Origin: Nitrospinota bacterium | GTDB taxonomy: Bacteria > JADFOP01 | Reading direction: 5' to 3' | Length of the DNA stretch: 19,700 nucleotides | NCBI GenBank assembly: GCA_022562795.1 | Contig: JADFOP010000041.1 | Span: 1-19,700 of the forward strand | Part shown: positions 2,244-19,700 of the stretch, piece by piece | How positions within the stretch are numbered: position 1 is the first letter of the stretch | Layout of the letters: every line of letters begins with the position of its first letter | Made by a program: the position numbers and the translations under genes | Notes under the pieces: model-generated | Told to the model about the DNA's origin: nothing | Database searches by the model: none | What the model saw: only the letters and a program-made list of their open reading frames with translations

Positions 2244-2343
2244 CGATGGGGCGCTAATCGAAAAAAGCGACCGGCCTGATTCCTTAACCTAAAGAAAGCT
2301 CTCTTGTCGAGAGTCTCCTGGGATAATTAATCCTAGGAATTTG

Positions 2344-2373
2344 TTGGACTTTTCCGCCCCCAGCATATATATT
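2344..2373 (+). promoter_or_regulatory. Putative sigma70-type promoter for leader element 1
   Basis: TTGGAC (2344-2349) is separated by 18 bp from TATATT (2368-2373); an overlapping TATAAT lies at 2375-2380. It sits about 30 bp upstream of the structured leader, as expected if the leader is at the 5' end of a transcript. The -35 box is imperfect. Confidence 0.4.
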
Positions 2374-2408
2374 ATATAATTAAAATAAAGTATCGTATCT
2401 CTCAATAA

Positions 2409-2496
2409 CCGCTATTCTGACCTTGGGGGAGTGAGTCAGTGAAAGCGGATTCTAGAAGCCAGGTTGCCCTTTAAGGAGGGTAGCTCGGCTTTTTTT
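2409..2496 (+). ncRNA. Structured leader RNA, copy 1: hairpin plus terminator-like hairpin
   Basis: P1 has a lower stem CCGCT/AGCGG (2409-2413 with 2444-2448), an upper stem CTGAC/GTCAG (2417-2421 with 2435-2439) and a 13-nt loop containing GGGGAG. P2 (2456-2491) pairs AAGCC with GGCTT and, after one mismatch, continues to a hexaloop TTAAGG (2471-2476); it is followed by seven T residues, so it is a good intrinsic terminator. The same layout, upper stem, loop length and TTGCCCTT segment recur at 19528-19616. That conservation with changed lower stems argues for a functional RNA, probably attenuation or antitermination. It matches none of the riboswitch consensus sequences I can recall. Confidence 0.6.
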
Positions 2497-2546
2497 ATTG
2501 TGAAATTTGACCTACGTGATAGGGGTCGGCCTTAAACTGGTACAAC

Positions 2547-2582
2547 ATTAAAGATGAAATGAAGAGCACCCTGGAGACCTGA
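2547..2582 (+). pseudogene. Start-lost, truncated remnant of a sensor-gene N-terminus
   Basis: Downstream of leader copy 1, GGTACAAC ATT AAA GAT GAA ATG AAG aligns with GGTACAAG ATG AAA GAT ACA AAG AAG downstream of leader copy 2 (19650-19675). The ATG is ATT here and the frame stops after 11 codons at TGA (2580-2582). I infer that the leader once preceded a paralogue of the right-edge sensor gene and that the coding part was lost. The next 125 bases hold a perfect 8-bp inverted repeat (CACCCTGG/CCAGGGTG, 2567-2595) and a 39-codon frame (2608-2727) that I do not recognise. Confidence 0.45.
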
Positions 2583-2851: not shown

Positions 2852-3973
2852 ATGCGAGACCAAGATAGCACAGTACTTAACCATGCGCTCGATTCCTCAT
2901 CACGGAATGGGGAGAACCGCGAGAAGCATGTCTCTGACCCACAGCAACCAGACTCTGAGGTCTCCTCTTCCGTGGAGCTGTCGCCGGAGGGTGACCTCCT
3001 TTCTGACCTTCTGTACTGGCACGCGCGCAACGTAATTAGGGATCTATTTGACTGTGTGAGAAAGAAGCATCCGTGGGATCCGCTCGAAGCCCACATGCTG
3101 GCCTTCTCCCTTGTGGACAACGTCTTGACCAGCCAGTTCCTGCGGCCCTCCAACTTCATGGAGCATTACGAGCAGAGCCTCTTCCAGCGGGCGTTTTGCT
3201 TCGAGACCAACGTTTCGGATCTCGTGGAGCACACCCTCAAAGTCACCCTCTTAGCGACCAAGCTCGGCTCCCTTCTGAAGTACTCCCACTTTGAACTCGT
3301 CCGCCTCGCCTTAGAGTCTCTTTTCCACAACATGGGAATGGCCTTCATCTCGGGCAAAATCCTCAATAAACGCGGCGAGCTGACCCATGACGATAAAATT
3401 TCCATTCATATGCACCCGAAGATAGGGGCTGATTTTGTAAAAGAACTGGGCGAGAATTACAATTTCATTGCCGATGTTATCTATCAAGTGCACGAGCGGG
3501 AGAACGGGGAGGGCTACCCCGAGGGGCTCTCGGGAGACAGCATCCATATGGATGCCAAGATTATCGGCATCTGTGATGTCTACGTGGCTTTGTGCCAGGC
3601 CAGGATTAATCGAGAGGCCCTCACGCCTTACGAGGCCCTTCAGAAGATTCTTGATGATATGGAAGATCAGTTTGCCCCCAACATCGCCAACGCATTGCTG
3701 GAGGCTCTTTCCATGTATCCCGTGGGTAGCCTCATCCAGTTTGAGTCGGGTGAGATAGGGCAAGTCGTCGCGGCAAATCCACAAACACCCATGCGTCCCG
3801 TCGTCGAACGCCTTTCAGACACTACAGGCCATGTATATCCTCCCCAATTGGTGGATTTGGCCGAAGACTCATCGGTCAATATCAAGGCCATCCTCTCCAA
3901 AAGTATGCTTAAGGATATGATGAGCTCTATAGAGCGAGAAGGAATGCCAAGTAACGATGGCGAAGCCGCCTAA
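2852..3973 (+). CDS. Degenerate HD-GYP domain protein
   Basis: The protein has 373 residues. The first ~50 are hydrophilic and low in structure; an all-helical segment follows, then an HD-GYP domain at about residues 125-275. HD-GYP domains normally hydrolyse cyclic di-GMP using a two- or three-metal site. Visible landmarks are EHTLKV (H127), HNMGM at 159-163 where HDxGK is expected, HMHPKIGADF (H188), QVHERENGEGYP at 212-223 where HHE...GYP is expected, and D242 in the position of the usual DxYDAL. The GYP signature is kept, but the HD aspartate is Asn160, the lysine of HDxGK is Met and one of the tandem His is Val213. I infer weak or no hydrolysis; it may act as a c-di-GMP sensor or scaffold. 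The C-terminal ~90 residues resemble the tail found after such domains (PVGSLIQFESGEIGQVVAAN). The Shine-Dalgarno sequence is weak (AAAAAGGCG). Confidence 0.8.
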   Translation: MRDQDSTVLNHALDSSSRNGENREKHVSDPQQPDSEVSSSVELSPEGDLLSDLLYWHARNVIRDLFDCVRKKHPWDPLEAHMLAFSLVDNVLTSQFLRPSNFMEHYEQSLFQRAFCFETNVSDLVEHTLKVTLLATKLGSLLKYSHFELVRLALESLFHNMGMAFISGKILNKRGELTHDDKISIHMHPKIGADFVKELGENYNFIADVIYQVHERENGEGYPEGLSGDSIHMDAKIIGICDVYVALCQARINREALTPYEALQKILDDMEDQFAPNIANALLEALSMYPVGSLIQFESGEIGQVVAANPQTPMRPVVERLSDTTGHVYPPQLVDLAEDSSVNIKAILSKSMLKDMMSSIEREGMPSNDGEAA

Positions 3974-14417: not shown

Positions 14418-14513
14418 GAAAGTTGGCGGTAGTTCTCTCACACTTTGACTGATTCCGCACCGCTCGATCCAGAATAAATCCGCTCCAAGCAAAAAAAATC
14501 GCCCTCCATTCGG

Positions 14514-14540
14514 GAAGTAGTGGAAGTACGAGAAGTACGT
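14514..14540. repeat. Three tandem 9-bp repeats
   Basis: GAAGTAGTG, GAAGTACGA and GAAGTACGT follow without gaps, 105 bp upstream of the M15 peptidase gene. They may be binding sites for a phage regulator. Confidence 0.6.
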
Positions 14541-14644
14541 GACGACAAGCCCACCTGATTTTTGATACTCCTCTCTTAGCGAAAGGGATTCGGTCCACCA
14601 GATGTGAGGCGGGCTCATGCCACACCTCAAGCGGAGGAGGAGAG

Positions 14645-17807: not shown

Positions 17808-19304
17808 GTGAGCATCCTCCACGACATTCTGCCGCCTAAAGTCTCCCGCTCCCCTGAGTCCGAAGCCCGCGTAGCCCTGGGTCTCAATCCGCCTAAGGCG
17901 GACTCAGGCGGATTCGGGTGGTGGTGTCACCACTACCTCCCGGATTACTTCAACCTCCCCTCGCCGCCTTTTCACGATGAGATAATTTCCGACCTGGAGT
18001 CCGTCTCAGATCCGCCTGAGGCTGACCACGCACAGCGTATCGTCGTTAGGGCCGCCCCCAGGGAGCACGCCAAGTCGACGCTTTGCACGCTCGCTCTGCC
18101 GCTCCACAGGGCCTGCAACGGCCTCGCCCGCTTCATCGTCATCGTCTCGGACACCGACACGCAGAGCCGGTTTTTCCTCTGGGCCATCCGGGAGGAGCTC
18201 GAGACCAACGAGCGCATCCGGGAGGACTACGGCGATCTGGTCGGCCGCAAGTGGACCGAGACGGAGATCATACTTGCCAACAATGTAAAAATTTTGGCCC
18301 GCGGCGCAGGTGCGAGCATGCGGGGCATAAGACATGGGCCATACCGGCCCGACCTCATCGTGGCCGACGACCTGGAGAACGACGAAAACATCGAGAGCCC
18401 GCTTCAGCGTGAGAAGATGACCCGCTGGTTCGACCGCACGCTCTTGAACTGCCTCGCCCCAGGGGGCTCGATGCTCGTTGTGGGCACGGTCCTCCACTAC
18501 GACTCGCTTCTCTCCCGGCTGCTTAAGCGCGGAGCAGACCCCCGTGGGGGGTTCAAGGCCAAAAAATACGCCGCCATCTCCGCCTCAGGCGGACCCCTCT
18601 GGCCGGAGCGCTGGCCCATTAAGCGCCTGGAGGCCAAGAAGCGGCAGATCGGCCTGGCGGCCTTCGAGCAGGAGTTCCAAAACGAGCCCCTCGACTCCGA
18701 GGCCCGCATCTTCCGGGAAGAGACTTTTGCTTACTACACGACCGAAGACATCGCCAGCAAGCAGCTCGCTACTTACGGCTTCATTGACCTCGCCATAAGC
18801 GAAAAGCAGACGGCCGACTACACGGCGCTCGTGACCATCGGCGTAGACGAAATGGGTAAGATTTACGTCCTCGACTACGTAAGGCGCAGGATGCCGATCG
18901 GAGCCCAGGTGCAGGCCTGCTTCCACGCCTACGACCGATGGGAGCACACGGCCCTCGGCGTAGAGGTCATCGCTTACCAGCGGGCCTTCAAGCAGCTCCT
19001 CGACGTTGAGAGCGCCAAGACGAGCAGGTGGATTCCTACGGTCGAGGTCAGGCCCGACGTGGACAAAGTCCGTCGCATCTCCACCCTGGCCCCTCTCATC
19101 GAGCGCGGCGACCTACTCTTCAGGCGAGAGCAGACGGAGCTGGTAGACGAGCTCCGCCACTTTCCCAAAGCACCCCACGACGACCTGGCCGACGCCCTCC
19201 ACGGGGCCGTCAACGTCGCCCGCAGGCAGGCGGTCGGCGTCATCGAGTTTAGGACGGTGGACCACAGGCGGGTCGGTAAGTCGCCTGCAATGGCCCGGTT
19301 TTGA
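17808..19304 (+). CDS. Phage terminase large subunit (Mu gp28-like)
   Basis: GTG 17808 has AAAGGAGAGG seven bases upstream. The 498-residue protein is the packaging ATPase-nuclease. The ATPase has a Walker A-like APREHAKST (83-91, Ala in place of the invariant Gly before KST), Walker B DLIVADDLE (182-190) and motif III VVGTVLHYD (224-232). The C-terminal nuclease domain has the acidic residues of an RNase H fold: GFIDLAIS near 325, and HDDLADALHGA near 460. It lies where gp28 lies in Mu-like phages. Three segments, NPPKADSGG (27-35), DPPEAD (68-73) and SASGGP (about 258-263), are encoded by palindromic repeats; they sit at likely loops, so the frame is intact. No portal gene follows. Confidence 0.88.
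   Translation: MSILHDILPPKVSRSPESEARVALGLNPPKADSGGFGWWCHHYLPDYFNLPSPPFHDEIISDLESVSDPPEADHAQRIVVRAAPREHAKSTLCTLALPLHRACNGLARFIVIVSDTDTQSRFFLWAIREELETNERIREDYGDLVGRKWTETEIILANNVKILARGAGASMRGIRHGPYRPDLIVADDLENDENIESPLQREKMTRWFDRTLLNCLAPGGSMLVVGTVLHYDSLLSRLLKRGADPRGGFKAKKYAAISASGGPLWPERWPIKRLEAKKRQIGLAAFEQEFQNEPLDSEARIFREETFAYYTTEDIASKQLATYGFIDLAISEKQTADYTALVTIGVDEMGKIYVLDYVRRRMPIGAQVQACFHAYDRWEHTALGVEVIAYQRAFKQLLDVESAKTSRWIPTVEVRPDVDKVRRISTLAPLIERGDLLFRREQTELVDELRHFPKAPHDDLADALHGAVNVARRQAVGVIEFRTVDHRRVGKSPAMARF
17888..17912. repeat. Palindrome and half-repeat inside the terminase gene
   Basis: TCCGCCTAAGGCGGA (17888-17902) followed by the right half CTCAGGCGGA (17903-17912), read as NPPKADSGG. 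Confidence 0.9.
18011..18025. repeat. Diverged palindrome inside the terminase gene
   Basis: TCCGCCTGAGGCTGA differs from the core by one base and is read as DPPEAD. Confidence 0.75.
18579..18593. repeat. Palindrome inside the terminase gene, other frame
   Basis: TCCGCCTCAGGCGGA is read as SASGG, a different frame from the other two terminase copies. Confidence 0.9.
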
Positions 19305-19527
19305 TGATGAAGGCTGTTTAGCTCCAGGAATCCGCCTCAGGCGGACCTGAGGCGGACGACCCCGACTACTTTTCTATGCGGTTAAAAATATAGGTGCAAT
19401 CGATATATTATTTATAGACTATGCAAATAATTATTAAGTTATCGAATAGTGGTTGACATTTCGTTTGAAGAGCGCACCTTTTTAGTTAATACCAGTTTCC
19501 AGACCAAGCTCAATATAAGCAGAAATC
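19305..19527. other. Right boundary region of the phage segment
   Basis: No gene is supported. The palindromes stop at 19369; after that the sequence becomes AT-rich. TTGACA at 19453-19458 has no -10 box at normal spacing. TATAAG near 19514 could be the -10 for the leader RNA starting about 19528. Confidence 0.4.
19331..19369. repeat. Palindrome, half-repeat and CGACCCCGACTAC module, last copy
   Basis: TCCGCCTCAGGCGGA (19331-19345), half-repeat CCTGAGGCGGA (19346-19356) and CGACCCCGACTAC (19357-19369), just outside the terminase gene. Confidence 0.9.
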
Positions 19528-19616
19528 CGCGAAGCTGACCGGAAGGGGAGAAGTCAGTGGCGTGAAGCTTACAGCCGAGTTGCCCTTAAAAGGAATTAAC
19601 TCGGCTTTCTTCATTT
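19528..19616 (+). ncRNA. Structured leader RNA, copy 2: hairpin plus terminator-like hairpin
   Basis: P1 has a lower stem CGC/GCG (19528-19530 with 19560-19562), an upper stem CTGAC/GTCAG (19535-19539 with 19553-19557) and a 13-nt loop with GGGGAG. P2 pairs AGCCGAGTT (19573-19581) with AACTCGGCT (19598-19606) around an interior containing TTGCCCTT and AAAAGG, and is followed by TTTCTTCATTTT. The start codon of a sensor-like gene lies 42 bases after the T tract. The shared layout with 2409-2496 makes a regulatory RNA likely. Confidence 0.6.
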
Positions 19617-19657: not shown

Positions 19658-19700
19658 ATGAAAGATACAAAGAAGACCAAAGAGCAACTCGTCAATGAAT
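19658..19700 (+). CDS. Start of a sensor-like gene, cut by the window end
   Basis: ATG 19658 has GAAGG seven bases upstream. The 14 visible residues (MKDTKKTKEQLVNE) are charged and helical, like the N-terminal coiled coil of many PAS-domain sensor kinases and related proteins. The assignment is weak because the domains lie outside the window. It follows leader copy 2 and aligns with the remnant at 2547. Confidence 0.4.
   Translation, partial: MKDTKKTKEQLVNE

Follow-up and report, generated by a model that had tools for sequence, protein, structure and literature searches.

A genus-restricted family of leader RNAs with a G-rich-loop hairpin and an intrinsic terminator: a candidate transcription attenuator spread as a promoter cassette

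Introduction

Bacterial leader RNAs can be read in different ways. As lambda nut/boxB, HK022 put and the LoaP leader hairpins illustrate, a leader hairpin need not overlap the terminator. Regulatory signals also occur in multi-copy intergenic units in front of unrelated genes, such as the Correia elements of Neisseria and the pneumococcal BOX elements. The RNAs targeted by ANTAR proteins, on the other hand, are tandem small hairpins of 3-4 bp, with hexanucleotide loops that have A at position 1 and G at position 4 (Ramesh et al. 2012, PMC3369931). Here, we describe a leader RNA present twice in a stretch of 19,700 nucleotides from a Nitrospinota bacterium (referred to as the window), follow its family through the available genomes, weigh the explanations proposed for it and, finally, compare it with the systems above.

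Two leader copies in the window

Both copies, referred to as A and B, consist of a first hairpin (hairpin 1) and an intrinsic terminator (Table 1), and the original prediction located them correctly, including the shared CTGAC/GTCAG upper stem, the 13-nt G-rich loop, the lower stem and the terminator. GGGG is present in both loops and TTGCCCTT in both terminators, and the lower stems, which are unlike in sequence, each still pair. The whole leaders fold better than shuffled sequences (z = -2.7 for A and -1.8 for B), mostly because of their terminators, which reach z = -2.5 (A) and -4.0 (B) when folded alone; the hairpin-1 segment folded alone is unexceptional (z = -1.2 and -0.3, respectively). 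Over the 112 nt that lead from the terminator into the following start, A and B are 69.6% identical, so that the start-codon contexts align as predicted. The frame behind A breaks at once, and the gene that once followed is lost.

Table 1. Positions of the leader copies and associated features in the window
Feature	Position	Strand	Basis or remark
Palindromic box TCCTGGGATAATTAATCCTAGGA upstream of copy A promoter	2316..2338	+	left half matches the CCTGGGATAAT box
Sigma-70-like promoter, copy A (TTGGAC / TGGACT ... TATATT)	2344..2373	+	consensus match only
Leader RNA copy A, whole model match	2403..2499	+	model R1 E = 2.4e-15; model R2 69.9 bits
Hairpin 1, copy A	2409..2448	+	sequence, folding, arm-swap test; lower stem CCGCU (2409-2413)/AGCGG (2444-2448), upper stem CTGAC (2417-2421)/GTCAG (2435-2439), 13-nt loop CTTGGGGGAGTGA (2422-2434)
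Intrinsic terminator, copy A	2454..2496	+	folding, signature search; hairpin 2454-2493, signature AGCTCGGCTTTTTT at 2482-2495, T tract from 2490
Remnant start-codon context after copy A (ATG AAA TGA)	2554..2562	+	aligned with copy B context
HD_5/HD domain protein, next gene after copy A	2852..3973	+	352 nt away; regulation by A uncertain
Promoter-like region, copy B	19453..19480	+	promoter scoring; good -35 (TTGACA), poor -10
Leader RNA copy B, whole model match	19521..19615	+	model R1 E = 8.2e-20; model R2 82.9 bits
Hairpin 1, copy B	19528..19564	+	sequence, folding, arm-swap test; lower stem CGCG (19528-19531)/CGTG (19561-19564), upper stem CTGAC (19535-19539)/GTCAG (19553-19557), extended form GCTGAC/GTCAGT, 13-nt loop CGGAAGGGGAGAA (19540-19552)
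Intrinsic terminator and T-rich tail, copy B	19573..19615	+	folding (z = -4.0); hairpin 19573-19606, then TTTCTTCATT
Gene start downstream of copy B (MKDTKKTKEQLVNE...)	19659..19700	+	cut by contig end, about 16 codons

Size and distribution of the family

The window's genome (G000) and the only congeneric genome (G001, a Nitrospinae assembly) both come from uncultured marine bacteria. BLAST gave seven matches in G001 and, in G000, a third copy, which precedes a pyruvate kinase gene. The covariance-model search of related genomes that had been proposed at the outset was carried out with a model (R1) that returned, at E<=0.01, 6 copies in G000 and 20 in G001, with the best E-values reaching 1e-20, all E-values resting on a brief calibration. 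The duplication is thus real, but was understated, the family having 26 members in two genomes. Among the weaker matches, one in G000 (C33:579) consists of the terminator alone and was not counted in the family, and one in G001 (C44:44881) has hairpin 1 without a terminator. Several copies are incomplete, with hairpin 1 broken in C23, C663b and C277 and the terminator missing in C333c, C399 and C44. The exact terminator signature AGCTCGGCTTTTTT is largely private to the family, as, of the 14 exact sites that the two genomes contain, 13 sit inside leader copies. At G000 C32:4347 (L256) an exact-signature terminator lacks a recognisable hairpin 1 and is followed by a same-strand start about 115 nt on; it is possibly a decayed leader copy.

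A second covariance model (R2), run on 386 genomes, gave no convincing copy in the 384 genomes outside the genus, 10 of which each had a single match; the best 5 of the 10 alignments cover the terminator only. The third genome of the phylum likewise has no copy detectable with the covariance model. In a pattern scan of genome contigs, full elements were, among the matches listed, confined to contigs of JALLOF01 (the congener, G001), and the scan of viral contigs gave chance matches only. Many Streptomyces species are among the pattern-scan matches listed, and at these loci (L015, L018, L021, L036, L040 and others) a conserved GAAGCTGACGCAGGGGGYGTCAGC hairpin, unrelated to the leader family, lies about 30 nt before the start codon. 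When the window and six further copies were compared with Rfam 15 at E up to 5 and 2, no leader matched any family, and no described element that matches the leader was found in the literature. The leader is a previously unlisted RNA family restricted to one genus, and the assignment to an unknown class stands; its size and restriction are provisional, since the genus is represented by two genomes only.

Placement and target genes

A gene starts on the same strand within about 165 nt of the terminator in 23 of the 26 copies (18 of 20 in G001 and 5 of 6 in G000), a count that includes two terminator-less copies, C333c and C399, where the gene frame begins inside the leader, and copies B and C751, which were counted by sequence and whose genes run off the contig end. 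Copy C277 faces a gene on the opposite strand. With a same-strand gene near so many copies, the matches are not scattered without relation to genes. Upstream, promoter-like scores of at least 9.5 are found for 54% of the copies but for 6% of random windows. Counted from the start of the model match, the -35 box is mostly at -65 to -71 and the end of the -10 box near -40; copy A has a promoter of this typical geometry, whereas copy B combines a good -35 box with a poor -10 box. From this fixed spacing a transcript start about 30-35 nt before the modelled leader is predicted, implying a leader of about 130 nt from promoter to terminator. Promoter, 5' leader, intrinsic terminator and same-strand gene together form the anatomy of an attenuator or terminator leader. 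A promoter-to-terminator unit of this length, with an exposed loop and many paralogous copies, could also be a trans-acting small RNA that ends at its own terminator and finds C/U-rich mRNA sites with the G-rich loop as its seed; we regard this as quite improbable, as a same-strand gene lies close behind nearly every copy and the terminator-less C333c and C399 run straight into a gene frame.

The leaders had been described as standing in front of sensor-type genes, which fails as a rule given the diversity of the targets, with the gene behind A lost and that behind B cut at about 16 codons, an N-terminus that we take to be sensor-kinase-like. Pyruvate kinase (pyk) carries the leader in both species at the same locus, and further targets include TadE and a TadG-like protein (Tad pilus, the latter read from sequence), exported or membrane TPR proteins, a PEGA-domain lipoprotein, dienelactone hydrolase, NfeD, subtilase, GmrSD, DUF2817, a GDSL lipase and two methyltransferases. 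No pathway is common to them, but hydrophobic N-termini of exported or membrane proteins are more frequent among the targets (10 of 19) than among the ORFs nearby (18 of 86; Fisher p = 0.009). Several copies of exported proteins starting with MRRSKRW or MISKKRW (L203, L217, L222, G001 C751 and G001 C760) have the same upstream box, some with the leader RNA and some without.

Conservation of pairing

In an alignment of 28 rows, 84% of cells pair, compared with 25-43% when partners are slid. Compensated pairs number 8 versus 5.5 in shuffles, which is not significant, and the covariation score is beaten by 0 of 500 shuffles, a control that does not remove the relatedness of the copies. With the 21 best rows, and under the same limitation, 15 of 500 shuffles reach the covariation score, compensated cells are marginal and the rest is unremarkable. 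An alignment-free test, in which each 5' arm was folded with its own or with swapped 3' arms, all delimited by hand, favours own arms for hairpin 1 (p = 0.028) and for the lower stem alone (p = 0.012). In addition, the divergent copies C79 (CCTAAA...TTTAGG) and C7:69375 (GCTGCG...CGTAGC) keep the hairpin with changed stems. Overall, covariation is weak and mostly one-sided; the helices are conserved mainly in sequence, and the support for hairpin 1 is modest. The compensating changes from which selection on structure had been suggested do exist, and the arm-swap test speaks for them, but they are not clearly above the shuffle controls.

Spread of the leader as a cassette

Pairs of copies in G001 are alike from about -190 or -160 to the terminator end while standing in front of unrelated genes; C541 and C759, for example, share 87% identity over 283 nt, from -164 to about +115, with unrelated genes behind. 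Homology between copies stops sharply at the terminator. The left part of this cassette is a separate dispersed intergenic repeat of about 60-115 bp, which ends in TTCCTGGGATAATCGTAACT (65 sites in G001 and 8 in G000; 0 with the reversed pattern as control), carries inverted and direct copies of AATATTAACT and has its counterpart in the window at 2316-2338. Whether or not a leader RNA follows, this repeat often lies about 10-15 nt ahead of a -35 box. The CCTGGGATAAT box, often imperfect, is found upstream of 18 of the 20 G001 leader copies. At pyk, the gene, its untranslated region and the terminator are orthologous in the two species (90%), whereas the promoter and hairpin 1 differ; in G001 the hairpin is badly diverged and the 5' untranslated region conserved. 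This comparison suggests that cassettes were exchanged between loci.

Other repeats are also present. In contig C7 of G000 a hairpin repeat, GACAGCCTTTATGGCTGTC, precedes two leader copies, those at 50184 and 69375, and two short stretches of the window (14493-14551 and 19331-19357) match many places in G001 and are further dispersed repeats. The terminase large subunit gene of the window (17808-19304) is followed by copy B and the sensor-like gene behind it; in G001 C177 the terminase is followed by a long portal-like ORF, so that the phage-like region is interrupted in the window.

The copying and the suggested exchange at pyk make a serious rival of the view that the leader is a dispersed repeat, or a promoter cassette that moves about, and that its hairpins regulate nothing, its conservation reflecting recent copying and conversion between copies. 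Sequence identity outweighs covariation, several copies are decayed, homology ends sharply at the terminator while often reaching about -190 through the separate repeat, and at pyk the promoter and hairpin differ although what lies downstream is conserved. We nevertheless think this explanation unlikely, given the same-strand placement between promoter and gene in most copies, the fixed promoter spacing, the hairpin kept with changed stems in C79 and C7:69375 and the presence of the leader at pyk in both species.

Possible switching routes

Terminator-based regulation, by a riboswitch or through an antiterminator protein, was originally proposed for these leaders. In the case of a riboswitch, hairpin 1 would bind a small molecule or second messenger and control the terminator without a protein. 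The aptamer-like hairpin directly before the terminator, the scattered, envelope-rich targets resembling second-messenger regulons, the GGDEF proteins present (four in G000 and two in G001) and the HD domain protein behind copy A would all agree with this. The searches for a switch argue against it: for a pseudoknot between the hairpin-1 loop and the terminator, own pairs were no better than swapped ones (p = 0.56), pairing of the CU-rich 5' tail with the G-rich loop was no better than with shuffled tails or in swapped pairs, and antiterminator pairing of the terminator 5' arm with upstream RNA averaged 0.48 compared with 0.52 in shuffles, with terminator-arm refolding above the copy's own null in 9 of 24 copies. 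Moreover, a single small hairpin with little covariation would make a meagre aptamer, and the lack of an Rfam match extends to the c-di-GMP classes. A riboswitch thus seems a minority prospect. The upstream promoter, the terminator at the end and the same-strand gene fit terminator-based regulation, but no alternative antiterminator fold was found, so that a classical riboswitch is not demonstrated; since the terminator 5' arm has no conserved refolding partner, a factor acting via hairpin 1 is favoured over pure RNA refolding.

An ANTAR protein as this factor is tempting because, 1.5 kb ahead of copy A, positions 2-892 of the window encode a PAS-ANTAR protein (ANTAR domain 665-823) that is open at the contig end and has an ortholog in the congener (G001 C233); a gene for a PAS/coiled-coil protein (956-1765) comes next, beside that copy. 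ANTAR domains number two in each genome. With stems of at least 4 bp, however, all copies together gave 3 single hexaloop matches where 5.05 are expected in shuffles, and never two consistent across copies, and the dual hexaloop is absent. The other ANTAR protein adjoins a urea-transporter-like gene, which explains that protein otherwise. Despite the nearby PAS-ANTAR gene, we therefore abandon the suggestion that the leader is an ANTAR target as highly improbable.

Two further candidates were rejected. Control by CsrA was discarded on finding PF02599 absent from both genomes, with E. coli, B. subtilis and T. maritima positive as controls. A leader peptide that would use the G-rich loop as its Shine-Dalgarno sequence and begin at a GTG or ATG in the 3' arm was discarded on finding, by eye, the frame stopped in most copies; in C760, C707 and C772 the frame stays open as far as an ATGA that overlaps the gene start.

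Proposed model

Our preferred reading, to which we give a probability of about 0.5, is a genus-specific cis-acting transcription attenuator in which hairpin 1 is read by a putative factor, probably a protein, and which has spread as a promoter-leader-terminator cassette. In this model, a vegetative promoter would set the start of transcription about 30-35 nt ahead of the leader, and RNA polymerase would make hairpin 1, exposing the G-rich loop (around GGAGGGGGA). Next, between a few and about 160 nt ahead of the gene, the polymerase would run into the conserved intrinsic terminator, where by default many transcripts would end as an RNA of about 130 nt. The putative factor would recognise the loop and stem of hairpin 1 and act on the polymerase or the terminator, so that under some condition transcription would go on into the gene. 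As a cassette that often includes the upstream CCTGGGATAAT box, the unit has been copied in front of unrelated genes, many of them for exported or membrane proteins. The anatomy, the number of copies, their placement with respect to promoters and genes, the confinement to the genus and the duplication of the cassette are observed; termination in vivo, its conditionality and the recognising factor are what we infer from sequence, and a leaky constitutive terminator would give the same sequence picture. That the factor is a protein is favoured by elimination and with moderate confidence only. More tentative still, and in our view rather doubtful, is the proposal that the leaders form a new class of factor-read attenuators, defined by a G-rich-loop hairpin and a sequence-conserved terminator and distributed over the genome of a Nitrospinae-like genus as promoter-leader cassettes, through which one putative antitermination factor governs a scattered, envelope-rich regulon.

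If the attenuator is conditional, an uncultured marine genus ties dozens of unrelated genes to one RNA-reading signal by copying the cassette; the family would then show clearly how a regulon can grow when a cassette is duplicated, and would point towards a new antitermination factor. Should it be no more than a repeat, it still cautions that riboswitch families can be mimicked by dispersed promoter cassettes.

Comparison with known systems

ANTAR-controlled leaders (eut, nas and ami; PMC3369931) resemble the family in having a hairpin directly before an intrinsic terminator, and ANTAR proteins are encoded here. In contrast to their two 3-4 bp A1/G4 hexaloop hairpins, the leader has one longer hairpin with a G-rich loop of 9-18 nt, and hexaloops are not above chance. 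With the c-di-GMP riboswitches (GEMM; c-di-GMP-I and -II in Rfam) it shares many copies per genome and diverse exported, pilus and sensor-type targets, but neither an Rfam match nor the two-helix tetraloop-receptor aptamer, and a refolding partner was not found. A factor that acts on RNA polymerase would also suit the leader hairpin, as in processive or factor-dependent antitermination elements, although none of the known ones matches the leader, which is restricted to one genus. Finally, the cassette is multi-copy, intergenic and placed before unrelated genes like the promoter-carrying dispersed repeats of the Correia and BOX type; unlike these, its orientation and promoter spacing are fixed to the genes, it ends in a terminator, and its leader can be separated from the upstream repeat.
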